Below are positions 4,429 through 46,523 of a stretch of 64,000 bases of DNA, one piece after another. Positions within the stretch are counted from its first letter, which is position 1. Every line of letters begins with the position of its first letter. The notes under the pieces were generated by a model. That model saw nothing but the letters and a program-made list of their open reading frames with translations. It ran no database searches and was not told where the DNA came from. Position numbers and translations under genes: made by a program. This DNA comes from an uncultured Actinomycetes bacterium. Lineage in GTDB: Bacteria > Actinomycetota > Acidimicrobiia > Acidimicrobiales > Ilumatobacteraceae. The stretch is taken from NCBI GenBank assembly GCA_903872155.1, contig CAIQJP010000146.1, forward strand, positions 1 through 64,000, read 5' to 3'.

Positions 4429-4443
4429 GTGACTAGCCCTTTT

Positions 4444-5115
4444 CTATTTTTGTTCAGGAATTGAACGGATACCTGTCAACTTAGGCGCAACTCGAGTCTT
4501 GTAACGAACATTCAGTTGCAAAAGTACTGCCGTAAATGCCTCGATGGCCGTGGCATTTGATAGTTGACCGGCATCCAAGGGTCGACATCCTGGAATCTTG
4601 TCGACGATGGCACTGACTTCTTTGAGTGCAGAGAGATCATCTGAACAAATCAAAACATCAGAGTCGATCGGTTCGCCAATATGTCCGAGCTCTTTGGCGG
4701 GAAGGTGATGGAAAGCGGCAACAACACGACTGCGCGGTACAGCAGCTTGAATATGGGCAGCCACACTGCCGCGAGGTGGGAGAAGCGGTTGGAATTCACC
4801 GGCGACGCGAACTAATGCATTGGCCATGCTGATGATGACCTTGCCGGCAAGTGCGTCGGCATTGTCTTGGACCGTGGTCGCTGCCGAATCCCAAGGGGTG
4901 GCAATCACGACTAAGTCGCATGCCGAAGCTGCTGCATTGTCTCCCCCCGTCAGTAAACCTGCGAGTTCGGGAAACTTAGCCACAAATTCGTTGGCAATCT
5001 CGGTGGCCCGATCGGCTGAACGAGAGCCGATGACGGCGTGGTAGCCAATGGAGGCAAGGCGGGCGGCTAACGCTGAGCCGGCGGGACCTGTTCCGCCGAG
5101 AATTCCAATACGCAT
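4444..5115 (-). CDS. npdG: NADPH-dependent F420 reductase (F420H2:NADP+ oxidoreductase)
   Basis: Catalyses hydride exchange between NADPH and the deazaflavin cofactor F420. The N-terminal Rossmann motif IGILGGTGPAGSALA at residues 3-17, followed by GSRS for the NADP 2'-phosphate, is diagnostic. Blocks such as VVIATPWDS and VVAAFHHLPA fit the family, and 223 residues is normal length. It is first in the npdG-mshC-plsC-thrS-HIT direction and diverges from inhA across 76 bases. Its presence implies that the organism makes or imports F420; no F420 biosynthesis gene is in this window. The flavin/deazaflavin split-barrel protein at 51254-51697 is a possible user (inference). Confidence 0.88.
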   Translation of the reverse strand: MRIGILGGTGPAGSALAARLASIGYHAVIGSRSADRATEIANEFVAKFPELAGLLTGGDNAAASACDLVVIATPWDSAATTVQDNADALAGKVIISMANALVRVAGEFQPLLPPRGSVAAHIQAAVPRSRVVAAFHHLPAKELGHIGEPIDSDVLICSDDLSALKEVSAIVDKIPGCRPLDAGQLSNATAIEAFTAVLLQLNVRYKTRVAPKLTGIRSIPEQK

Positions 5116-5179
5116 GAATACACAATGGCACAGATGATCAGCGATTCTTTAGTTGACCCTTTAAGAACAGTGAAACAAC

Positions 5180-5185
5180 TAGTTT
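5180..5185 (+). promoter_or_regulatory. -10 element for leaderless inhA transcript
   Basis: TAGTTT lies exactly 6 nt before the inhA ATG at 5192, so transcription would begin at the start codon. No Shine-Dalgarno site precedes the ATG. TTGACC at 5153-5158 is 21 nt upstream, too far for a normal -35. Confidence 0.55.
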
Positions 5186-5191
5186 GTTCGT

Positions 5192-5959
5192 ATGAGTCTT
5201 CTTGCTGGTAAGAAAATTGTCGTCACAGGTGTTCTCACTGATGCATCCCTTGCCTTCGGGGTCGCCAAATTGGCGCTCGAACAAGAAGCCCAGGTGGTCT
5301 TAACAGGGGCGGGCCGAGCAATGTCGTTGACTCAGCGAACTGCCCGCAAACTCTCACAAACGGTTGAGGTTCTTGAACTCGATGTGACGGTTGATGAACA
5401 TGCACCCATTGTTCGGGATCACCTTGCAGCCACTTGGGGTTCAGTTGATGGTGTCGTGCACTCCATTGGGTATGCGCCTGAAGTATGTCTCGGTGATGAT
5501 TTCATGGCTGCGACGTGGAATGACGTTGCGGTCGCGATGCAAATCAGCGCATATTCACTCAAGCATCTCGCTGATGTCTTCGTGCCCTTAATGAAGCCAG
5601 GCGGATCCATCGTTGGTCTTGACTTCGATAACACGGTCGCGTGGCCGGCGTACAACTGGATGGGTGTTGCCAAGTCAACGCTCGAAAGTATCAATCGCTA
5701 TTTGGCGAAAGAATTAGGTCCCAAAGGAATTCGTTCCAACCTGGTGGCCGCTGGACCCATCAAAACCATGGCAGCAAAATCGATTCCCGGATTTAAAAAA
5801 TTTGAAGATATCTGGGACGATCGAGCGCCTTTGGGATGGGATGTCACCAACGGAGAACCAGTGGCGCGTGCCGTCGTTGCATTGTTATCTGATTGGTTTC
5901 CCGCGACAACGGGATCAATGATCCACGTTGACGGCGGGTATCACGCAACTGGTGCGTGA
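5192..5959 (+). CDS. inhA: Enoyl-[acyl-carrier-protein] reductase, InhA/FabI type
   Basis: NADH-dependent reductase of the last step of fatty-acid elongation. It has the divergent SDR nucleotide site typical of FabI/InhA (VVTGVLTDASLAFGVA, residues 10-25), the catalytic stretch with Y-N-W-M-G-V-A-K (Tyr and Lys seven residues apart), and the substrate-loop segment RSNLVAAGPIKTMAAKSIPG. YNWMGVAKSTLESINRYLA closely follows mycobacterial InhA rather than E. coli FabI. The gene is monocistronic and ends 9 bases from the convergent thiolase. A dissociated type II fatty-acid synthase is implied; the other FAS-II genes are not here. Confidence 0.92.
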   Translation: MSLLAGKKIVVTGVLTDASLAFGVAKLALEQEAQVVLTGAGRAMSLTQRTARKLSQTVEVLELDVTVDEHAPIVRDHLAATWGSVDGVVHSIGYAPEVCLGDDFMAATWNDVAVAMQISAYSLKHLADVFVPLMKPGGSIVGLDFDNTVAWPAYNWMGVAKSTLESINRYLAKELGPKGIRSNLVAAGPIKTMAAKSIPGFKKFEDIWDDRAPLGWDVTNGEPVARAVVALLSDWFPATTGSMIHVDGGYHATGA

Positions 5960-5968
5960 GGCAAAGAT

Positions 5969-7177
5969 TTACAGACCGCTTCGTTCCAAAATGTGGATTC
6001 CGCAGGCTGAGCCCAAGCCGATGACATGGGCTAGACCAACTTTGGCGTCCTTGATCTGACGATCGCCGGCTTCATTGCGCAGGTGATGACAGACTTCCCA
6101 AATGTTGGCAATACCAGTTGCGGCAATGGGGTGACCCTTTGATTCGAGACCACCAGAAACGTTGACTGGCATTGAGCCGTCGCGCCAGGTTGCACCACTC
6201 ATGAAGAAGTCAACGGCGCCACCTTCGGGGCACAACATCAAGTTGTCGTAGTGCACGAGTTCTGCGGTGGCAAAGCAGTCATGGAGTTCAACGAGGTCAA
6301 GATCGCTCGGTGACACGCCGGCTTGCTCGTAAGCAATCTTGGCGGCGTTACGCGTCAAGGTGTTGACATCGGGCAGGATCTGACACGCTTCTTCGTACGG
6401 GTCGGTCGTCAACACTGAAGCTGAAACCTTGATCGCGCGACGCTGTTGTTCTTTCGACAACGTACGGAGAACTTCACCAGATGTCACAACTGCTGCAGCA
6501 GCACCGTCACAGTTGGCCGAGCACATTGGACGAGTATTCGGATACGCGATCATCATGTCGTTCATGATCTCGTCGAGGGTGAAGCGCTTTTGGTACGCAG
6601 CCATCGGGTTCAAGACCGAGTGAGCGTGATTCTTCTCGGAAATTTTGGCGAACAGTTCAAATGAAACTCCGCCGTACTTGTGGCCGTATTCCATTCCGAC
6701 TTGAGCGAAGGTTCCGGGCATGGTGTCGGTTCCGATACGTCCGTCAGTCGGAAGCACGCTTCCGTAGCGACCACGTGGCTCGAATTTGTTGCCGTCCTTC
6801 TTGGATACTCCACCGCCGCCGAGCAAACCTGCGCCGGCGAGCTTTTCTGCACCAACGGCCAGACCCATACGGACTTCGCCGGACTTCACCGCCATGATCG
6901 CGGTACGCAATGCAGTTGCTCCAGTGGCGCAAGCGTTGGCCACGTTGTACACCGGAATACCGGTTTGGCCGATTTGCTTTTGCAATTGCTGACCAAACCC
7001 AGCGCCAGCACCCATGAGGTTGCCGGCTGCCAAAATTCCGATATCGGCCATCGTGACGCCTGCATCAGCCAATGCAGCAATTGCTGCTTCTGATCCGAGG
7101 TCAACAATGTCTTTGTCGGAATGCTTACCAAACTTGGTCATTGCGATTCCGAGGATCCAGATGTCGTCACTTGCCAT
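5969..7177 (-). CDS. Thiolase-family protein (SCP-x / lipid-transfer type acetyl-CoA acetyltransferase)
   Basis: Carbon-carbon bond forming or cleaving enzyme of CoA-thioester metabolism. The catalytic Cys lies in NVANACATGATALR, and the second catalytic region appears as HDCFATAELVHYDN and SGGLESKGHPIAATG. This arrangement fits the SCP-x/non-decarboxylating thiolase subfamily rather than FadA, which has a C-terminal C-x-G motif. AAGG lies 9 nt before the ATG. Immediately upstream on the same strand is an OB-fold/zinc-ribbon protein, a standard partner of this subfamily, so the two probably form a complex in sterol or branched-acyl degradation or in acyl-CoA condensation. The substrate is unknown. 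Confidence 0.85.
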   Translation of the reverse strand: MASDDIWILGIAMTKFGKHSDKDIVDLGSEAAIAALADAGVTMADIGILAAGNLMGAGAGFGQQLQKQIGQTGIPVYNVANACATGATALRTAIMAVKSGEVRMGLAVGAEKLAGAGLLGGGGVSKKDGNKFEPRGRYGSVLPTDGRIGTDTMPGTFAQVGMEYGHKYGGVSFELFAKISEKNHAHSVLNPMAAYQKRFTLDEIMNDMMIAYPNTRPMCSANCDGAAAAVVTSGEVLRTLSKEQQRRAIKVSASVLTTDPYEEACQILPDVNTLTRNAAKIAYEQAGVSPSDLDLVELHDCFATAELVHYDNLMLCPEGGAVDFFMSGATWRDGSMPVNVSGGLESKGHPIAATGIANIWEVCHHLRNEAGDRQIKDAKVGLAHVIGLGSACGIHILERSGL

Positions 7178-7242
7178 GATGAGTGCCTTCGCTTTCGTAG
7201 TTGAAAAATGTTACTGAATATGAATGAAACAGGTAGTAATGA

Positions 7243-7635
7243 TCAAGCGGGTTCGAAGCCAAAACCAATGGCTTCTGTGCCTTCGTCGTCGGTTCCGAGG
7301 CTGAAGGTAGTCAGGCGAACTTTCATGCCAAGAGTTACTTTTTCTGGAGTTGGCTCGGTGTTGATGACATTGCCACGAACGCTGGTGCCGCCACAGTCGA
7401 TGATTCCGGCAACGAACGGTACGGGAACTCCGGGAGCCGCGAAAGCAACAATCGTGAATGACTTCAAAATTCCGTCGGTTGAAATTGCGACCTTCTTGAA
7501 ATCGTTCTTGAAACACTTTGCGCAAGCGTTGCGACGATCAAAGAATCGAGCACCACACGAGGTGCATTCGTTGGCAACGAGGTGGGGCTTGTCGCCCAGT
7601 TCTAGATAATCAACGTGTGGGATTTGGTTAGCCAT
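7243..7635 (-). CDS. Zn-ribbon/OB-fold (DUF35-type) thiolase partner protein
   Basis: A 130-residue protein with an N-terminal rubredoxin-like zinc ribbon, CTSCGARFFDRRNACAKC (four cysteines, near residues 24-41), followed by an OB-fold with FTIVAFAAPGVPVPFVAGIIDCG. This is the DUF35 architecture, found beside SCP-x thiolases and HMG-CoA synthase and known to hold acyl-CoA subunits together. GGAG lies 8 nt upstream of the ATG, and an 11-bp inverted repeat (CCGTT-T-AACGG) overlaps the leader. It sits 65 nt upstream of the thiolase, probably in one transcript. Confidence 0.87.
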   Translation of the reverse strand: MANQIPHVDYLELGDKPHLVANECTSCGARFFDRRNACAKCFKNDFKKVAISTDGILKSFTIVAFAAPGVPVPFVAGIIDCGGTSVRGNVINTEPTPEKVTLGMKVRLTTFSLGTDDEGTEAIGFGFEPA

Positions 7636-7731
7636 GATGGATGCTCCGTTTAACGGTTGTTCGAACAGACTTACCCTAAACCTTCATGTGCCCCGAGCAG
7701 AAACCCTTGTGTCGGCACTTCCCAATTGGTG

Positions 7732-8355
7732 TCACCACTGTCCGAGGTGGACAACCTCAGATTTTGGTCGGCGAGTACGGGTTGTCGGAGAACCACTTGG
7801 TTGATCATCGGGGTGGCGATAACCCACGGCGATGGCCCCAACGCACGAAACTGATGGCGGCACCGCATATGCATCCAAAACGACTCGGGGGTCACCGAAG
7901 AGTCCAAATAACAGGGCTCCCCAGCGTTTTTCTTCGATCAGAAGGAGAAGATTTTCGGCTGCCATCGCCGCGTCAGTCAACCAAAATGGCGTGACCCACC
8001 GCTCGGCATCGTCGAGCCCGTGTCCGGCCTTATCAGGCAGGCTGTAACGCTCGGTGTAGGCATCCTGGTCCCCGAGAATCAGAACAATGGCGCTGGCATC
8101 AAGTACCCCAGGCGCCTTCACGCTGAACCAGTCCCCTGAACCAGAAACCTGCCAAAACTTGGTGAGCTGATCATCAGCGAGGACAAGAAAATGCGCACCT
8201 TGTGAAAAACCGGCTGAGGGCGCCCGTAAAGCCAAGGCGCACATGTCGGTCAACTCCGTTGATGACGGTCCGCCGGAAAATCGTCGGGTCATGCGCCGCC
8301 GGCGCAACAATGCCTCGAGCGCACTCGAAGAATTGGGGCTACTTGAGTTTGCCAA
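7732..8355 (-). CDS. Nitroreductase-family flavoprotein
   Basis: An FMN-binding nitroreductase-like fold is indicated by the N-terminal RRRRMTRRFSG, the LALRAPSAGFSQGAHFLVL strand-helix (FMN-contacting A-P-S-x-G), and a C-terminal CVGAIAVGYRHPDDQP typical of the family. The reaction is not predictable; members reduce quinones, nitro compounds or enoates, or act in cofactor metabolism. The start is uncertain: a TTG at 8355 gives the 207-residue form and overlaps the upstream gene by 17 nt, while an ATG at residue 22 would be shorter than the family norm. The overlap suggests translational coupling to the GNAT-like gene. Confidence 0.8.
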   Translation of the reverse strand: MANSSSPNSSSALEALLRRRRMTRRFSGGPSSTELTDMCALALRAPSAGFSQGAHFLVLADDQLTKFWQVSGSGDWFSVKAPGVLDASAIVLILGDQDAYTERYSLPDKAGHGLDDAERWVTPFWLTDAAMAAENLLLLIEEKRWGALLFGLFGDPRVVLDAYAVPPSVSCVGAIAVGYRHPDDQPSGSPTTRTRRPKSEVVHLGQW

Positions 8356-8998
8356 GTTTGAGCAGATCCTCAGTCATCGTCCAGCCGTGAATGATCAAAC
8401 AACCACCAACTGCGGGGTTCACCCCCGAGAACAACTCGGCGATTTCCGGCTTGATCTTGTCGGCCTTTGTTGATTCGTGGTCAAGAAAACCCGACAAGCC
8501 CTTTTTGCCAACAATGAAGGTCTTTTCGTCATACTGGGCATCAACACCGAAACGTCGAGCTAAGCGGCGACCCCACGCCCTCTCTTCGCCCACAGCGCGA
8601 TGTCCTGGTCGAGGAATGAGTTCAGTGAGTTGTTTGAAAGCTTCAAGGCCTTCGGCTGAGACGAAACGGCTTCCGACGACGACATCTTCGTCAGGGAAAG
8701 CCATCAGGGCTCGGTGAAAGGCTTCGGCCATGAGACCTTTCAAAATCTGATCTCGTTTCGACGAACGCTTGACGCTCATCAAACCCAGCAAAACACACGG
8801 TGTGCCACCAATACGTTCAAGCGTGGAAAAGGTAAAACCTTGGACTTTGCCGGCCTCAATGGACGTGGTGCACAGCACCCAGTCTTCTTTGGCCTTGACG
8901 AGGCGCTCCATATCGAATGAGCCACCCATCGCGACCATGTCTTCGAGTTGAGCCTCCGTAAGCGCCGCGCAATCTATTGTTTCGACTTCGACGGACAT
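8339..8998 (-). CDS. Uncharacterised protein with a GNAT-like core
   Basis: 219 residues, no confident family. The middle part (GFTFSTLERIGGTPCVLLGLMSV followed by a basic helix and GLMAEAFHRAL) resembles the beta4-alpha3 core of GCN5-type N-acetyltransferases, but the classic Q/R-x-x-G-x-G/A acetyl-CoA motif is not clear. The C-terminus, with PAVGGCLIIHGWTMTEDLLKLGKLK, is unlike standard GNATs. AGGGAG lies 11 nt upstream of the ATG. It is immediately upstream of, and overlapping, the nitroreductase gene, so a common role is likely. Acetyltransferase activity is inference only. Confidence 0.7.
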   Translation of the reverse strand: MSVEVETIDCAALTEAQLEDMVAMGGSFDMERLVKAKEDWVLCTTSIEAGKVQGFTFSTLERIGGTPCVLLGLMSVKRSSKRDQILKGLMAEAFHRALMAFPDEDVVVGSRFVSAEGLEAFKQLTELIPRPGHRAVGEERAWGRRLARRFGVDAQYDEKTFIVGKKGLSGFLDHESTKADKIKPEIAELFSGVNPAVGGCLIIHGWTMTEDLLKLGKLK

Positions 8999-9117
8999 GA
9001 AAACGGCTTCTCCCTGGTGGACCCGGAATTGAGGGATCCGGAAACGATCTCACCTATTCTGCCACTTGGAAGGGCGTGAGAGCGAAACGACCTTGTCGTG
9101 TCGGGGGAAATAACGAC

Positions 9118-12100
9118 CTAACGGACGACTCCGGCCCCAAAGGCGACTCGTAACGGCGGAATGACCCGGTCAATATCAACCATGAATTCGGCGCCAAGCT
9201 TCAGAATCTTGGCATCACCGATATGTAAAAAGACGTACGAGGGTCCGGGGTACTTCGTCAAAATGGACTTCAGGCGAGCAACATTTTCTGGATCGAGCGC
9301 AACTGCTGGCAGGTTTAAACGCAGTTCGGGTTCGCGGTTTGACAGTTGTAATGGAGTGATTTCCATCGTGGCCACGCTGATGCGATCATCTTGTCGATTC
9401 ACCCGACACTTCACTGAAATGATTGCCTCGTCAACAATCTTGTGTCCGTGGGTCTGCAAGGTCTTCGTGAAAACCGTGAGTTCAACTCCCCCGTACAAAT
9501 CTTCAAGATGCACGATGGCCATCGGATCACCTTTTTTAGTGACCTTGCGTTCAACTTTGGTAATGATGCCAGCCAAAGTCCAAATGGAACCATTTTCGGC
9601 TTCGGCCAACATTGCAGTGGTCGTCGTGGAATGTTTGTTCAATGACGACTCGTGGCCGAACAACGGGTGGTCACTGATGTACAGACCCAGCATTTCTTTT
9701 TCGAACTTCAGTTTGACTGATTTGTCGTATTCGTTTTCAGGAATCGGAATGTCAAGATCAAACGAGGGATCAGAATCGGTATCGATGGCATCGAAAAGAC
9801 TCATCACTCCTTGATCGGCTTCAGCACGTCGTGACACGGTGTCGTCAACGATGTTTTCAAAGACGGCCATCAGACCTTGACGGGGGTGACCCAAACTGTC
9901 AAAGGCTCCGGCCTTGATGAACGATTCCACGGCCTTTTTGTTGAGGCAATCGGTCGGAACGCGCATCGCGAAATCGTGGAACGATTCGAATGGGCCGTTT
10001 GTTTGGCGCTCAGCAACAATTCGTTCGCAAATAGCGTGCCCAACACCTTTGATCGCTGACAGGCCAAAGTGGATCACTCGCTCTTCAACTTGCGGCGTGA
10101 AGTCAACATCGGAAACATTGATATTGGGAGGTCCAACCGTGATTCCGCCGATTCGGGCATCAACGAGGTAGCCAGCAGCTTTATCAAGGTTGTCTTTAAC
10201 ACTCGTGAGCATTGCTGCGAAATACTGAACCGGATAGTTCGCTTTGAGGAAAGCAGTTTGGTAACAGATATACCCGTAGCCGAATGAGTGACTCTTGTTG
10301 AATGCGTAGTCGGCGAAATTTTCGATGATGTCAAAGAGTTGCTTGCCAAGCATGTCTCCATAGCCCGATGTTGCGCACCCTTCTTCGAACTTAGAACGTT
10401 CCTTCTCCATGAGGGCGCGTTCTTTCTTGCCGCACGCCTTGCGCAAGTTGTCGGCTTCGGCTAACGAATACCCTGCAAAACGTTGCGCAACACGCATCAC
10501 ACTCTCTTGATAAATCATGAGTCCGTAGGTGTCACCGAGAACTTCTTCGGCGTCGGGATGGAAGTACTCAACCTTCTTGCGACCATTTTTACGATCAGCA
10601 AAGTCGTAGTGCATATTGACGCTCATGGGGCCAGGGCGATACAGGGCAATCACAGCCGACACATCTTCAAAGCTTGTTGGTGCCATGGCCCGAAGCAACT
10701 GTTGCATTGGAGGAGACTCGAGTTGGAAGACACCGATGGTGTCGCCGCGCGACAACAATTCAAAAGTCTTTTGATTATCGATCGCGATGGCATCAATATC
10801 AAAATTGGGTTCTGATAGACGAATGAGTGCCATTGCGTCGGAGATGACGTCCAAGTTACGCAGACCAAGGAAGTCCATCTTCAACAGGCCGAGTGATTCA
10901 ACGCCGTGCATTTCGAACTGAGTTGTTACTTGCGACTCTTCGATGGGCTTGCCAGCTTCTGGCTTGCGTTGCAGAGGCAAGTACGAAGTCAGTGGTTCTT
11001 TGGAAATCACCACAGCAGCCGCATGAATTCCGGTGGATCGCTTGAGGCCCTCGAGTCCTTTGGCCACATCGATCACTTGCCGCATATCTTCTTCAGACTC
11101 GTAGATGTCGCGAAGTTCTTGAGCAGCTTGATACCCGTCTTTGTATTTCGGATCGAGTTCGAGACAATATTTGAGCGGAGTGTCGCGACCCATAACGAGA
11201 GGTGGCATTGCCTTAGCAAGTTTGTCGCCAACTGCGTATGGATGGCCAAGTACTCGAGCCGCGTCACGCACGGCATTGCGGGCCTTGATCGTGCCGAACG
11301 TAATGATTTGGGCGACGTGTTCGCGGCCATAGGTATCAGTTGCGTAGTGAATCATTTGCTCGCGATACCTGGAGTCAAAGTCCATATCGATGTCGGGCAT
11401 TGAAATACGACTGGGGTTTAAGAAACGTTCAAAGAGTAAGTCGTAGCGAATCGGGTCAATCTCGGTGATGCCCAAGCAATAGGCAACTGCGCATCCGGCG
11501 GCTGATCCACGTCCGGGTCCGACACGAATACCTTGTTCTTTGGCGTACCGAATGAGATCCCACACGATCAAGAAATACGAGGCAAACCCCATATCGCAAA
11601 TGACCTTGGTTTCATAAGCCAATCGTTCGATGATTGATGGTGCGAGTTTGTCGCCCCAACGGCGCTTGGCACCTTCTCGTGTGAGATGGTCAAGGTACGC
11701 CGCGTCATCAGCGAAACCTGGCGGGATTTTGAAGTTTGGCAATTGTGGTTTGCCAAACTCGATGGTGACTTCAGCGCGTTCGGCGATCCAGAGTGTGTTG
11801 TCGCATGCTTCAGGAACTTCACGGAAGACGTAACGCATTTCGTTTGATGTCTTGAGGTAATGCTCGGTGCCTTCAAAGCGAAAACGCTTTGGGTCGTTCA
11901 TCATTGAGTTGGTTTGAACACATAACAGCGCATCATGGGCATCGCTGTCGTGACGATGTACGTAGTGCGAGTCGTTGGTGGCAATCACCGGTGCGCCAAT
12001 TTCTTGGGCGATCTGCAGTAATTGCGGATTGGTCTTGGTTTGGGCAGCCAGACCGTGGTCTTGAATTTCTACGAAGAGGTTGTCTTTGCCAAAAATTTCT

Positions 12101-41017: not shown

Positions 41018-41024
41018 AGGGGGA
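41018..41024 (+). promoter_or_regulatory. Strong Shine-Dalgarno site of the substrate-binding protein gene
   Basis: GGGGGAG is followed by AAAATATG, so it sits about 6 nt before ATG 41031. It contrasts with the many leaderless genes here and suggests high translation, as expected for a binding protein. Confidence 0.65.
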
Positions 41025-41030
41025 GAAAAT

Positions 41031-42341
41031 ATGCAGAAGTCACGCGCACGCCGCGTTAGTGCTCTTCTCGTCGGTTTAGCAATCGTGGGCGTTTCAGCCT
41101 GCGGCGGCGACGACGGTGGAGCTAAAGGTGGCGAACTAGAAGGAATGAAGGGCACCACGCCTAAGAGCGCCGAGATCAGCCAGGAATGGCTCGACAAGGT
41201 TTCAGCATTCTGGGAATCAGAAGGCAACACCAAGCTTGCCGACTTCAACTACGCAGCCGAGGCTTACGACGCAGTCGTGGTCATCGCTCTTGCCGTTGAA
41301 GCAGCAGGCACCGACGGTGCAGCTCATGCTGACGAAATCGTCAACGTCACTGTTGGTGGCACCAAGTGCACCACCTTTGTTGATTGCTTGGCAATCATCA
41401 AGGACGGCGGCGACCCCGACTATGACGGTATTTCCGGTCCGCTCGACTTCAACGGAAACGGAGAGCCACTCAAGGGTTCATACGCCATGTTGCAGTTCGG
41501 TGCCGACAACCGTCTTGACGATGCACTCACAACATTGATCGAAGCCGAGTCACCCGCATCAGCAATTGTTGAATTGGGCAAAACCTCTGCAACTCGCGCT
41601 GGTGATGGTCAGCTCAAGATTGGTTCACTCCTCCCCGAGACCGGTAACCTTGCCTTCCTCGGTGACCCCGAGTACGCCGGCCTCGAGTACGCAATCAATG
41701 AAATCAACGCTGCAGGTGGCGTTCTTGGCAAAGATGTGTTGTACAGCCAGGGAGACTCTGGCGACACCAGCACCGACATTGCCAGCACCTCTGCTGACCG
41801 TTTGATCAGCGAAGACGTAGACGCCATCGTTGGTGCTGCTTCATCTGGTGTGACCTTGACCGTGATCGACAAGATCACTGCCGCTGGAATCACCATGTTT
41901 AGCCCAGCAAACACCAGCCCCGCATTGAGCGATTACGCCGATGACAATTTGTATTTCCGTGACGCACCGCCGGACGGACTGCAGGGTGCAATCGTTGCTA
42001 ACCAGATTATCGAAGACGGTAACTCTTCGGTATACATCATGAACCTTGATGATGCTTACGGCAACGGCATTGGTGCTGTTGTGAAGGCTGTCCTTGAGGC
42101 CGCTGGTGTTGAAGTGCTCGGAACCAAGGCTTACGACCCGGCTGCTGCATCATTTGACGCAGAAGTTGGCGAAGTTGTTGCTGCCGATCCGGACGCCATC
42201 GTGTTGATCTCGTTCGACGAAGGTAGCCGCATCTTGCGTACCGCCGTTGAAAACGGAATCGGCCCGAAGGTCAAGATGTGGTACGGAACCGATGGCAACA
42301 TGGGTAACGCACTCGGAGAAAACTTCGACGCTGGTAAGTGA
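41031..42341 (+). CDS. ABC-transporter substrate-binding lipoprotein (branched-chain amino acid type), circularly permuted
   Basis: 436-residue periplasmic-binding-protein type I (Peripla_BP_6/LivJ-like) lipoprotein with signal peptide and lipobox VSAC (Cys24). The order of segments is wrong for the family. Residues 37-180 (LEGMKGTTPKS ... FNYAAEAYDAVVV ... DYDGISGPLDF ... AMLQFGADN) correspond to the normal C-terminal third. Residues 195-436 (LKIGSLLPETGNLAFLG ... SPANTSPAL ... YGTDGNMGN ... GENFDAGK) correspond to the normal N-terminal part. The last residue, Lys436, would be followed in a normal protein by Leu37. Length is normal overall, and signal peptide, ribosome site and terminator are intact. 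Codons look biased as in a highly expressed gene. It converges on livFGMH. Either a true circular permutation or an assembly rearrangement. Confidence 0.92.
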   Translation: MQKSRARRVSALLVGLAIVGVSACGGDDGGAKGGELEGMKGTTPKSAEISQEWLDKVSAFWESEGNTKLADFNYAAEAYDAVVVIALAVEAAGTDGAAHADEIVNVTVGGTKCTTFVDCLAIIKDGGDPDYDGISGPLDFNGNGEPLKGSYAMLQFGADNRLDDALTTLIEAESPASAIVELGKTSATRAGDGQLKIGSLLPETGNLAFLGDPEYAGLEYAINEINAAGGVLGKDVLYSQGDSGDTSTDIASTSADRLISEDVDAIVGAASSGVTLTVIDKITAAGITMFSPANTSPALSDYADDNLYFRDAPPDGLQGAIVANQIIEDGNSSVYIMNLDDAYGNGIGAVVKAVLEAAGVEVLGTKAYDPAAASFDAEVGEVVAADPDAIVLISFDEGSRILRTAVENGIGPKVKMWYGTDGNMGNALGENFDAGK

Positions 42342-42375: not shown

Positions 42376-42410
42376 AAAGGCCCCCGGGAAACCGGGGGCC
42401 TTTTTGTTAC
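42376..42410 (+). terminator. Rho-independent terminator of the substrate-binding protein gene
   Basis: Perfect 12-bp stem (42376-42387 with 42392-42403), GAAA loop and a U-rich tail (TTTTTGTT from 42401). It is the only strong intrinsic terminator I see in the window. In the opposite direction the tail is only three T, so it would act weakly on the livF side. Confidence 0.93.
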
Positions 42411-42458: not shown

Positions 42459-43196
42459 TCAGCCACCAGTGGCTTTTGCCAACGTGCCGAGGTACAACTC
42501 GATGACGTTGGGGTCGGCCAGCAGCTCACGACCGGTCCCGGTGTACGCGCTACGACCTTGATCAAGCACATATCCCCGATTCACAACTTGTAAGCACCGG
42601 CGAGCATTTTGCTCGACCATCAAGATGGCAACGCCAGTTGCGTTAATGGTGCGACATTGCACAAAAACCTCGTCCTGTAGTGCCGGTGACAATCCAGCTG
42701 AAGGTTCGTCGAGTAACAAGATCTTTGGTTCAAGCATGAGAGCACGACCCATGGCGACCATTTGTCGCTCACCACCAGATAACGCACCAGCGCGCTGCGA
42801 AGCTCGATCGCCAAGCTTCGGGAACAAGCTGACGACGTATTCAAATCTTTCACCGAAAACCGACGGCTTTAAGAAGCATCCCATTTCAAGATTTTCTTTA
42901 ACGGTCAGGCTTGGAAAGACATTCTTGTTCTGCGGTACATAACCGACGCCTAACGGAACCAATTCGTGGGCTTTACGCCCAGTGATGTCTTGGCCCATCA
43001 ATGTCACTGTTCCAGAACGAACCTTGCACTGGCCCAACACTGCTTTCAACAACGTTGACTTACCTGCACCGTTTGGCCCGATGATGCCCACAAATTCTCC
43101 AGCATTGACGACAACGTCGCAGCCATTCAGAATATTGACTTCAGGGATATACCCAGCAACGAGATCTGTGCTGCGAAGGATTGCGGTATCTTCCAT
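42459..43196 (-). CDS. livF: Branched-chain amino acid ABC transporter ATP-binding protein LivF
   Basis: 245 residues. Walker A GPNGAGKST near residue 39, Q-loop VPQNKNVFPSLTVKENLEMG, signature LSGGERQMVAMGRALM, Walker B ILLLDEPSAGLSP and the H-loop region MVEQNARRCL. Q-N-A-R at the last motif is typical of LivF, which has Glu-Gln in place of the usual His. It powers the importer with LivG. ATG 43196 overlaps the livG stop as TGATG. Confidence 0.93.
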   Translation of the reverse strand: MEDTAILRSTDLVAGYIPEVNILNGCDVVVNAGEFVGIIGPNGAGKSTLLKAVLGQCKVRSGTVTLMGQDITGRKAHELVPLGVGYVPQNKNVFPSLTVKENLEMGCFLKPSVFGERFEYVVSLFPKLGDRASQRAGALSGGERQMVAMGRALMLEPKILLLDEPSAGLSPALQDEVFVQCRTINATGVAILMVEQNARRCLQVVNRGYVLDQGRSAYTGTGRELLADPNVIELYLGTLAKATGG

Positions 43197-44068
43197 CACT
43201 CATCCTCCAACAACGATTGACCCTGACGGGTTCCGAGATATGCGTCGATCACCGCGGGGTTTTTCGAGATGTCGTCAGGCGTTCCTTCAGCAATAATGCG
43301 ACCTTCGGCCATCACAATGACCCAGTCGGAGACATCATGCACCATGTCCATGTCGTGCTCGACGAACAACACTGTCATTCCTTGATCACGCAACCCACGA
43401 ATGTGTTCGTTCAAACTTTGTTTGAGCGCAGGGTTGACACCAGCCATCGGCTCATCAAGCATGACCAATGTCGGATTCGTCATGAGTGCACGAGCCATTT
43501 CGAGCAACTTGCGCTGTCCGCCCGATAGTGCGCCGGCATACTCGTCGCGCATATGGCCCAGTTTGAAGCGATTCAGTAACTCTTCGGCGCGTTCGGTGAT
43601 GGAAGCTTCTTGTGCTTTCCACACTCGACCGAACAAACCATTCCACCACTTTTCGCCTTTTTGATCGGTCGCGCCAAGACGCATATTTTCAATGACTGAC
43701 AGTTTGGTCAAACTTTTGGTGAGCTGGAAGGTACGAACCATTCCGAGTGATGCCGTCTTATGCGGCGCAACATTCTCCATCGACTTTTCATTGAAAGTCC
43801 ATGAACCGGTGTTGGGCTTATCGAACCCGGTGAGCAAGTTGAACAAAGTTGTTTTACCGGCGCCATTGGGACCAATCAGTGCAGTGATACTTCCCCGCTG
43901 AATCTCCACGTGCTCGACATCGACAGCTACGATTCCACCGAATTCGCGGCGGATACCAGAGGCATTCAAGATCGCATCTTGTTTGGCTGCTCCTGGTGAC
44001 CGTTCGACGCCAGCCAAAGCGGCACGGGCAACAAGAGTTGCTTCAGAGAGTGAGTGCTCAGTGTCCAT
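43196..44068 (-). CDS. livG: Branched-chain amino acid ABC transporter ATP-binding protein LivG
   Basis: 290 residues. An N-terminal extension of about 40 residues, unusual for LivG, precedes the ABC domain: Walker A GPNGAGKTTLFNLLTG, Q-loop VRTFQLTKSLTKLSVIENM, signature LSGGQRKLLEMARALM, Walker B LVMLDEPMAGVNP and FVEHDMDMVHDVSD (H-loop). The Leu-Phe-Asn-Leu-Leu after Walker A and the family C-terminal tail (AYLGTRQGQSLLEDE) fit. ATG 44068 overlaps the livM stop by 11 nt. The upstream form from 44101 is not favoured. Confidence 0.92.
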   Translation of the reverse strand: MDTEHSLSEATLVARAALAGVERSPGAAKQDAILNASGIRREFGGIVAVDVEHVEIQRGSITALIGPNGAGKTTLFNLLTGFDKPNTGSWTFNEKSMENVAPHKTASLGMVRTFQLTKSLTKLSVIENMRLGATDQKGEKWWNGLFGRVWKAQEASITERAEELLNRFKLGHMRDEYAGALSGGQRKLLEMARALMTNPTLVMLDEPMAGVNPALKQSLNEHIRGLRDQGMTVLFVEHDMDMVHDVSDWVIVMAEGRIIAEGTPDDISKNPAVIDAYLGTRQGQSLLEDE

Positions 44069-45068
44069 CGAAGGCCATCTCCTTGCGATTTCCAAAGACA
44101 CCTTGCGGTCGATACACCATCAGCAAAATCAGGGTCAGACCGATCAACATGTAGTTCAGTTGACCAACTTGGGTTGATTTCATGATGGTGAAGTTGCCAA
44201 TACTCACCGGGTCTTTGGCGACTTGGCGCAAGAAGTTATCCATAAACGTGAAGATGCCCCAGAAGATCATGGGGCCAACAATTGATCCCGATACTTTGGC
44301 GACACCACCAAGAACAAGCGCGGTCAAGATGTAGAACGTGACGTCACGGCTGTAGTTGTCTGGCTGAACACTTCCTCGGTCAAGGGCGAAAATCATGCCT
44401 GACATCGTGCCAATAGCGCCACCGAGAATGAGTGATTGCATTTTGTATGAGAAAACACTCTTACCGAGACTGCGCACAGCATCTTCGTCTTCGCGAATGG
44501 CCTTGAGCACTCGACCCCACGGACTTTTCATTAACAAGTACACGAAGTATGCAACAACAGCGACAACGACCCAACCCACCACGAGAGTCCATAGTTCGCG
44601 ACCAGTAAAACGCAGAGGCCAAATTCCGTATTGGTTGGCTTGAACGATTCCGATGTCGTCACCGATATTTCGGAATGAATCGGTAAATCCGTTGATTCCG
44701 TCGCTGCCGCCAAAATACGTCTTGAACTTCACTGATCGAACAACAAGACGAATAATCTCCGCGGACGCGATCGTGACAATTGCCAAATAGTCAGCTCTCA
44801 ATCGCAGTGTTGGAATACCCATCAAAAAGCCCAACACCACCGAGAATGCAATGCCGATCGGAATACCCCACCACATCGAGATGCCGAAATAGTGAGCGGT
44901 CATTCCTAATCCATAAGCACCACATGCCATGAAGCCGGCTTGACCAAAATTCAATAGGCCGGTGAAACCGAATTGCACGTTGAGTCCAATGGCGGCAATC
45001 GCGAAGTACACGGCGTTGATGCCAATGAAACCCTTGATGCTGTTTTCGATAATGAGAGACCAATCCAC
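44058..45068 (-). CDS. livM: Branched-chain amino acid ABC transporter permease LivM
   Basis: 336-residue inner-membrane permease with about nine hydrophobic segments, including the family features NAVYFAIAAIGLNVQFGFTGLLNFGQAGFMACGAYG, LRLRADYLAIVTIASAEIIRLV, SPWGRVLKAIREDEDAVRSLGK (cytoplasmic EAA-like coupling loop) and the C-terminal YRPQGVFGNR. It starts 2 nt after livH, with which it forms the translocation pore. Confidence 0.93.
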   Translation of the reverse strand: MDWSLIIENSIKGFIGINAVYFAIAAIGLNVQFGFTGLLNFGQAGFMACGAYGLGMTAHYFGISMWWGIPIGIAFSVVLGFLMGIPTLRLRADYLAIVTIASAEIIRLVVRSVKFKTYFGGSDGINGFTDSFRNIGDDIGIVQANQYGIWPLRFTGRELWTLVVGWVVVAVVAYFVYLLMKSPWGRVLKAIREDEDAVRSLGKSVFSYKMQSLILGGAIGTMSGMIFALDRGSVQPDNYSRDVTFYILTALVLGGVAKVSGSIVGPMIFWGIFTFMDNFLRQVAKDPVSIGNFTIMKSTQVGQLNYMLIGLTLILLMVYRPQGVFGNRKEMAFDGH

Positions 45069-45070
45069 GG

Positions 45071-46441
45071 TTAACCCACTCTCTGCGCTCGTCCAAGGAT
45101 CCCTTGCGGACGCAAGAGAAGAACCAAAATCAATACAAGCAAAGCCGGCGTCGCTTTCAGCTCGGTCGGTACGACCAAACTGGCGACCTCAACCATGATG
45201 CCAACGACGAACCCGCCCATTAACGCTCCAAAGGCTGAACCAAGTCCACCGAGAGTGATTGCTGCGAACAACAAGAACAACAATCGACTACCCATATCAA
45301 AACTCACTTGCTCATCAAGACCTCGGAAGATTCCGCCAGCCGCCGCTAAGGCGCCGCCAAGAATCCAAACCAAACGTATGACTTTTTCGGAGTCAATTCC
45401 GGTGGCTGACGCCAAATCGGGGTTATCCGAAACTGCGCGAGTGGCCTTGCCTAAACGAGTGAAACGCAAGCCAAGAGCAACGGCAATCAAAATCAACAGA
45501 CTCATCATGGACACAATGAGGTCGCGTGCCGTGATGCTAATTGGGCCAAATTCCATGGCGCGTTGCAAAGTGAATTCTGCGTACGGACGGGTACGTCCTT
45601 CAAACCTTGATAAGAAAAAGTTACGCAAAAGAATTGACAGTCCGACGGTGAGAACCATTTGGGTCACAAGTCCGATTCCGCGCTTCCGCAAACGACCGAA
45701 AATTGCGTAGTTAAGAGCCCAGCCAAATGCTCCACCAGCGATAATGCCGATAGGTGCCGCCCATAAAATATGGAAGGTTCCGTTCGGTCGAATACCCGGA
45801 ATAAAGCTTAAGAAACCCAAGAAACTCAAACCTGAAATATTGAGAACGAAGGCGGCTAGTCCGCCAAAGGTAACCATCTCACCATGGGCGAAGTTCGTTA
45901 ATCCGGTGGTACCAAAAATCAATGACAAACCAACTGAACACATGGCCAAAATCAATCCAAGACGTACACCGTCGACGAGACGCTGTGCAACCTTTTCAAA
46001 AAGTGATTGTGAAACACTTTGCGAACCACCGGTAAAAAAGTTGACAACCTTTGTTTTCATGACGAACGAGTCCGCGAGCAATGTTTGGCTGTTGGAAGCC
46101 GCGGCATCAAGTTTCTGCCCAGAAGGCAAAGTTGACTCATCAATTGTGACTGTGTAATCGGCCTTAGCGGGAAGGTCGAAGATCGCAATGCCATCGGCAT
46201 CAGTTTCTAAGCGCCCAATTTCGACTCCATTAGCGTCGGTAACAAAAACAGTGACGCCAGCAATGGGTTGATTATCAGTTTTTCCGGCCGCGTCGCGTTG
46301 CTGTTCTTTGACTTGTACGCGAATCGCGTAACCATCACCTTCGGCATTTGCAGGAGAAAAGGCAAATCCAAGGACTGCAAAAATGGCCGACAAAAGAACC
46401 AAGACACGAATGAATGGAGATTTCTTCGCCGATGATTTCAC
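45071..46441 (-). CDS. livH: Branched-chain amino acid ABC transporter permease LivH with N-terminal extracytoplasmic domain
   Basis: The C-terminal 290 residues are a normal LivH permease (GLSLIFGTTGLTNFAHGEMVTFGG, a TRAVSDNPDLASATGIDSEKV coupling loop, LLRPQGILGR at the end). In front lies an extra ~165-residue region: a signal peptide (KKSPFIRVLVLLSAIFAVLG ... SPANA, cleavage after A-N-A), then a small beta-sandwich resembling carboxypeptidase-regulatory/prealbumin domains (PIAGVTVFVTDANG ... LETDADGIAIFDLPA ... DYTVTID). GTG 46441 with GGGGAGAG upstream starts the signal peptide neatly; ATG 46495 is the longer alternative. The added domain faces outward and could meet the binding protein (inference). 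Confidence 0.88.
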   Translation of the reverse strand: MKSSAKKSPFIRVLVLLSAIFAVLGFAFSPANAEGDGYAIRVQVKEQQRDAAGKTDNQPIAGVTVFVTDANGVEIGRLETDADGIAIFDLPAKADYTVTIDESTLPSGQKLDAAASNSQTLLADSFVMKTKVVNFFTGGSQSVSQSLFEKVAQRLVDGVRLGLILAMCSVGLSLIFGTTGLTNFAHGEMVTFGGLAAFVLNISGLSFLGFLSFIPGIRPNGTFHILWAAPIGIIAGGAFGWALNYAIFGRLRKRGIGLVTQMVLTVGLSILLRNFFLSRFEGRTRPYAEFTLQRAMEFGPISITARDLIVSMMSLLILIAVALGLRFTRLGKATRAVSDNPDLASATGIDSEKVIRLVWILGGALAAAGGIFRGLDEQVSFDMGSRLLFLLFAAITLGGLGSAFGALMGGFVVGIMVEVASLVVPTELKATPALLVLILVLLLRPQGILGRAQRVG

Positions 46442-46523
46442 TTGAAATTCAACTCTCCCCAGAAAACCTGTACCTGAACCGACTTGCGCCGCCATGAACT
46501 TGACCTAGCGTAGTGCAGGTCCT

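Follow-up and report, generated by a model that had tools for sequence, protein, structure and literature searches.

A Probable Natural Circular Permutant of a LivJ-type Binding Lipoprotein and the Apparent Recurrence of Its Permutation in Actinomycetota

The window, which is the whole stretch of 64,000 nucleotides that was analyzed, contains an open reading frame for a LivJ-type binding protein that adjoins LivHMGF-type genes on the opposite strand (42459-46495). The protein has a signal peptide and a lipobox-like VSAC sequence in which the codon of Cys24 is at 41100-41102; secretion and a lipid anchor are predicted from this pattern. Behind the cysteine there is a short linker, which in relatives is longer and often TEAP-rich, and the remainder of the chain comprises three blocks that are designated C, N1, and J. 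The features of the locus are as follows.

About 41018-41025, forward strand: Shine-Dalgarno-like site upstream of the start codon at 41031, read by eye
41031-42341, forward strand: open reading frame of 436 residues with an ATG start and a TGA stop
41031-41102, forward strand: signal peptide and lipobox up to Cys24, recognized by eye and by a lipobox pattern match
41103-41132, forward strand: short linker behind the lipobox cysteine, residues 25-34
41133-41549, forward strand: C block and tail, residues 35-173 (HMM core 41139-41513)
41550-41612, forward strand: linker joining the old C terminus to the old N terminus, residues 174-194, with limits inferred from canonical ends
41613-42269, forward strand: N1 block, residues 195-413, the N-terminal part of canonical LivJ-type proteins (HMM; PF13458 match at profile positions 2-238)
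42270-42338, forward strand: J unit, residues 414-436, a predicted strand and helix (HMM core 42273-42335)
About 42378-42406, forward strand: terminator-like GC hairpin and T run, read by eye
42459-43199, reverse strand: LivF-type ATPase, in convergent orientation to the binding-protein gene
43196-44101, reverse strand: LivG-type ATPase (listed open reading frame, of which 43196-44020 was run against Pfam)
44058-45068, reverse strand: LivM-type permease
45071-46495, reverse strand: LivH-type permease with an N-terminal part ahead of the membrane domain

The blocks of the window protein are in the order C-N1-J, as compared with N1-J-C in canonical LivJ-type proteins, where J is a strand-helix unit of 23 residues. 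The C block, which includes a predicted strand at residues 168-173, is the counterpart of the canonical C-terminal third. The earlier note on this DNA had proposed that the C-terminal segment comes first and that the normal N-terminal start follows at residue 195, and this order was confirmed both by Pfam and by block HMMs. The PF13458 profile matched residues 195-431 only, at profile positions 2-238 of 343, with a score of 129.6 bits against a cut-off of 31.7 that places the protein in the family; in the canonical relative L112 the match to the same profile extends from 2 to 307 in a single run. Only PF13458, PF01094, and PF13433 were found by Pfam at E 0.001, and an NCBIfam search of the protein gave matches below the cut-off only. 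In a comparison with the LivJ structure 4gnr, residues 171-400 (mature numbering) matched residues 7-231 of the chain, and residues 49-74 and 106-131 matched residues 280-305 and 314-339, in reversed order and with scores that are individually insignificant. By block HMMs the C, N1, and J blocks each occur once in the 64 kb window, the remaining N1 and C matches having E values of 0.13 or worse or being fragments of the same match. A second adjacent copy, which the earlier note had named as a finding that would speak against its reading, is therefore absent for every block within the window.

Relatives of the window protein are present in many assemblies, at identities from 91% downward. The two parts were searched separately and their order compared, as the earlier note had suggested, and C preceded N at 16 of the 22 related loci in named genomes; one locus (L021) was canonical and five had one part only. 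Orthologues with the same order, which the note had also wished to see, were found in that the permuted order is kept at this locus in related genomes. One of the 16 loci, L020, belongs to the second permuted class described below (class B), and nearly all of the named relatives with the order of the window protein (class A) are, judging by their titles, from metagenome-assembled genomes. Loci L006, L007, L017, and L019 are titled Bifidobacterium breve, but these titles look wrong, as their binding proteins share 80-91% identity with that of the window and L006 groups with Acidimicrobiia rows.

Within the window's family, at least 131 of 150 genomes gave a match, and at least 52 of the 150 (by hand count) had a single match that runs through both blocks, C first and N second; three of these 52 matches stop early, at 386-397. 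All 47 of the spanning-match genomes that were fetched as DNA (that is, all but G096, G146, G095, G027, and G020) have class A genes with the order C-N1-J. At least 34 other genomes of the family had an N1 match at 47-60% identity and no spanning match, and the 22 of these that were fetched are all canonical. Among the matches listed, no genome belonged both to the permuted set of 52 and to the N1-only set of 34. A single spanning match was rejected as proof of permutation by itself, since two such rows, G044 (77-430) and G1037 (85-445), proved on fetching to be canonical genes (L079 and L179); both were left out of the permuted counts.

Block HMMs assigned 181 open reading frames to three architectures: 79 are canonical (N1-J-C), 69 are class A (C-N1-J), and 33 are class B (J-C-N1). 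These counts contain duplicates, one species being present in two collections; for 8 of the first 124 frames, an identical compared domain was present in another frame. Four further open reading frames had no C block by the same HMMs. The ends of the two permuted classes are sharply placed. The stop codon lies 21-24 residues past N1 in all 69 class A frames and 1-7 residues past N1 in all 33 class B frames, so that J is the last unit of the window protein and the first unit of class B proteins, and the two cut sites flank J at a distance of 23 residues. Class B is common in family f102, where it was counted by hand in at least 85 of 121 genomes; 27 of these were fetched, and the genes are all of this class. 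In the class to which genome G610 belongs, a full-length match was found in at least 8 of 246 genomes, of which two are in f102; of the other six, five were fetched and all are class B. The permuted form is also present in at least 2 of 35 genomes of family f64 and in at least 8 genomes from a spread of 396 across the phylum. The permutation is not a single oddity, because the form is found in a large clade of Acidimicrobiia and a second cut site is used elsewhere in the phylum.

The number of origins was addressed with a tree of 103 rows, thinned by identity from 171, in which the blocks had been joined in silico in canonical order; L002, L003, L004, L024, L025, L026, L079, L126, L144, L146, L151, L167, and L169, which are remote paralogues, fragments, and long or odd rows, were omitted. 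The permuted rows form five clades that contain no canonical row, with support values from a bootstrap that had not fully settled: A1 (24 rows including the window, 100/99), A2 (L076 and L077, sister to canonical L104 at 100/99), B1 (19 rows from f102 and L020, weakly joined at 92/13 and beside canonical L119), B2 (L170-L172, 99/97), and B3 (L174, sister to canonical L185 and L120 at 100/99). A single clade of all permuted rows was rejected (p 1.3e-8, and p 0.0063 in a 96-row set thinned from 115 rows), as was a single clade of all class B rows (p 2.1e-5); these and the following p values are rough because the groups were named after the trees had been seen. For class A as one clade the result was borderline, p being 0.074 with 103 rows and 0.023 with 96. 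The union of B2 and B3 was not rejected (p 0.10), nor was that of A1 and B1 (p 0.577), for which the joined tree scores slightly better. The tree from N1 only has six changes, of which two for class A and two for class B are forced by starred branches, and the tree from C only lacks resolution.

Among the alternatives, a single ancient permutation, with several later returns to the canonical order, survives best, and we regard it as unlikely. The compatibility of A1 with B1 and of B2 with B3, together with the borderline result for class A, would suit such a history, but parsimony on the 103-row tree requires five changes of order as independent gains and eight reversions after a single gain, the clade of all permuted rows is rejected, and individual permuted groups, namely A2 and L174, have canonical sister rows. 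At least two origins look safe, and three to five are likely; A1 and B1 may derive from one shared permutation, with the cut later shifted across J. On balance we favor repeated permutation in one subfamily of LivJ-type proteins in Actinomycetota, with about five events on the best tree, mostly in place next to the transporter genes and with the cut on one side of J or the other. The cut region would then be an evolutionary hot spot for re-anchoring, and canonical and permuted forms would be interchangeable at the same locus.

The neighborhood of the genes bears on what the permuted proteins do. Of the open reading frames, 57 of the 69 in class A, 63 of the 76 canonical ones, and 6 of the 33 in class B have a convergent livF within 1.5 kb (a count that includes duplicates and omits L002, L003, L004, and L024-L026). 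Of the other 12 class A frames, six are followed by no more than 1 kb of sequence, five by a longer stretch that has no livF, and one has livF upstream. The six class B genes beside livF are those outside f102, and livF was absent near all 27 fetched class B genes of f102 (L078 and L131-L156). Close to two of these, L078 and L137, there is an open reading frame that resembles leucine or valine dehydrogenases, as recognized by eye. A role outside transport, as a sensor or as some other binding lipoprotein, is quite improbable for the permuted protein: the 27 f102 genes, and likewise the class A genes L070-L072, have no livF nearby, but the window gene and the 57 class A frames lie beside livF and are arranged as the canonical genes are. 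Because none of the 27 genes adjoins livF, the same function is not implied for the class B proteins of f102, which may have another role. The shared locus itself is most simply explained by permutation of the gene in place, with continued service to the same importer.

The structure prediction proposed by the earlier note gave a confident fold for the window protein (AlphaFold with 37 class A sequences, pLDDT 90.6, pTM 0.86), and the class B protein L078 was predicted equally with 32 sequences (pLDDT 91.3, pTM 0.89). Residues 193-436 of the model superpose on residues 1-241 of the canonical protein 3ipc (Z 20.8, 2.6 A over 239 residues) and on 4n0q (Z 21.0, 2.8 A). The superposition covers this part and not the C block, which is unmatched to canonical structures because the two aligners used, Foldseek and VIA-align, follow chain order. 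In the model, J consists of a strand (416-419) and a helix (426-433), and the C block opens with a strand at 40-44. The lineage of the window gene is under purifying selection: in ten pairs from A1, dN/dS is 0.03-0.14 for N1 and 0.05-0.23 for C. The corresponding values are 0.19 and 0.28 in the A2 pair and 0.24-0.41 and 0.31-0.52 in three class B pairs; some values for the linker and J (up to 1.3) are unusable because dS is tiny. Conservation, selection, and predicted fold together support the view of the earlier note that this is a working, circularly permuted LivJ-type protein. A pseudogene or non-working relic of a rearrangement is very unlikely, given the open frame with its signal peptide, ribosome binding-like site, and terminator-like hairpin, the purifying selection, and the conserved position next to livFG. 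No second close copy was found in the window's own genome, which besides this gene has a canonical paralogue at 29% identity and one match to the N-terminal part at 23%. An assembly artefact, with a false order produced by the collapse of a repeat or of two canonical copies, is scarcely credible and was rejected. The window is from a genome of 165 contigs, and genomes of this type may contain chimeras, but the order and the end points are the same in many other assemblies. Some of these genes are on long contigs of 0.5-7 Mb (L016 on 1.30 Mb, G360 on 565 kb, and the class B gene of G610 on a single contig of 7.0 Mb), and the dN/dS of the blocks is low.

The block order is conserved over many assemblies, the liv locus is shared, selection is purifying, and the fold is predicted with confidence. 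The product of the window gene is very probably a LivJ/HAAT-type lipoprotein (PF13458, type I/cluster B) that is circularly permuted by nature and serves the adjacent LivHMGF importer. In such a permutant a linker of about 20 residues would connect the old C and N termini, and the new ends would be situated between J, which is the final strand-helix unit ahead of the crossover, and the next strand, at a site that would correspond to residues 241/242 of 3ipc. The lipid anchor would therefore be at this site, near the crossover, and not before the first strand of the N-lobe. An amino acid, probably branched-chain, would be bound between the two lobes and passed to LivHM, as presumed from the canonical relatives. 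The order may have arisen by tandem duplication in place, in-frame fusion of the C block of the first copy to the N1 block of the second, and loss of the outer pieces, and on the best tree about five such changes would have taken place in the subfamily, at two cut sites flanking J. No duplication intermediate with J at both ends was present among the 102 permuted open reading frames, and flanks of up to 2.5 kb contained no remnants of a duplication except for a tandem pair at L070 and a weak N1 match beside L147. The L070 pair consists of two permuted binding-protein genes (L070:5686-7056 and 7060-9291) with no livF near. At L176, two canonical binding-protein genes (L176:2012-3367 and 4435-5745) are in tandem within one liv locus, and a tandem duplication of this type could precede a permutation.

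The N1 and J blocks align in sequence and structure with the HAAT proteins LivJ and LivK (LivJ 4gnr, and 1z15 and 1usg, the LIV- and leucine-binding proteins), and canonical actinobacterial LivJ-type relatives occupy the same liv locus as the window protein. As compared with LivJ and LivK, the two parts of the window protein are swapped, and the anchor and both ends are elsewhere. Sequence searches of solved structures returned no permuted LivJ-type protein, the reported stretches being within the N1 part. The NeIle sensor (8z0g, 9jti), a fusion of the LIV-binding protein with mNeonGreen, is engineered. MglB belongs to a Pfam family other than PF13458, and by Pfam at E 0.001 the window protein is not a member of the sugar-binding MglB sequence family.

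The earlier note knew of no natural permutation in this family, and this holds for LivJ insofar as none was found in the open literature, a scope outside which most subscription journals lie. It does not hold for type I binding proteins at large, since a natural circular permutation of a lipid-anchored protein of this type, TpMglB-2 (Tp0684) of Treponema pallidum, has been described (PMC4990184). According to that paper, this glucose-binding, MglB-like protein has the first three strands of its N-lobe near the C terminus and requires a fourth crossover; its relatives are in treponemes and Gram-positive bacteria, a type Ic/cluster Bc was proposed for them, and a link of permutation to membrane tethering was also raised (PMC4990184). 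Its text makes no mention of LivJ or branched-chain proteins. TpMglB-2, as described there, and the window protein are both circularly permuted type I proteins with a lipid anchor (predicted for the latter), but about 70-100 residues are moved to the C terminus in TpMglB-2 and about 242 (195-436) in the window protein. The cut also differs, being next to the last unit ahead of a crossover in the window protein. Natural permutation of a type I protein was thus already known from that source (PMC4990184), and the LivJ-type permutation differs in its cut and in being apparently recurrent, which we rate as its surprising part.

Because the swap is real, widespread, and seemingly repeated near the same place, evolution can rewire a common binding protein without breaking it. 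The canonical, C-N1-J, and J-C-N1 forms within one subfamily, often at the same type of locus, are a natural series that permits a direct comparison of how binding and transport depend on chain connectivity and on the position of the anchor. If the recurrence is true, why some sites are permuted repeatedly becomes testable. There is also a warning for annotation in that the PF13458 profile covers only about two thirds of the permuted proteins.

A further feature of the locus is the N-terminal part of the LivH-type protein (45071-46495, reverse strand), which has about 165 residues and begins with a signal-like segment, behind which a region gave sub-threshold matches to CarboxypepD_reg, bMG3, SdrD_B, and SpaA. 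A tie between this part and the permutation was considered and rejected, since matches to it are present at many canonical loci too; its lengths in the comparison across loci were taken from the open frame and not from a start codon.
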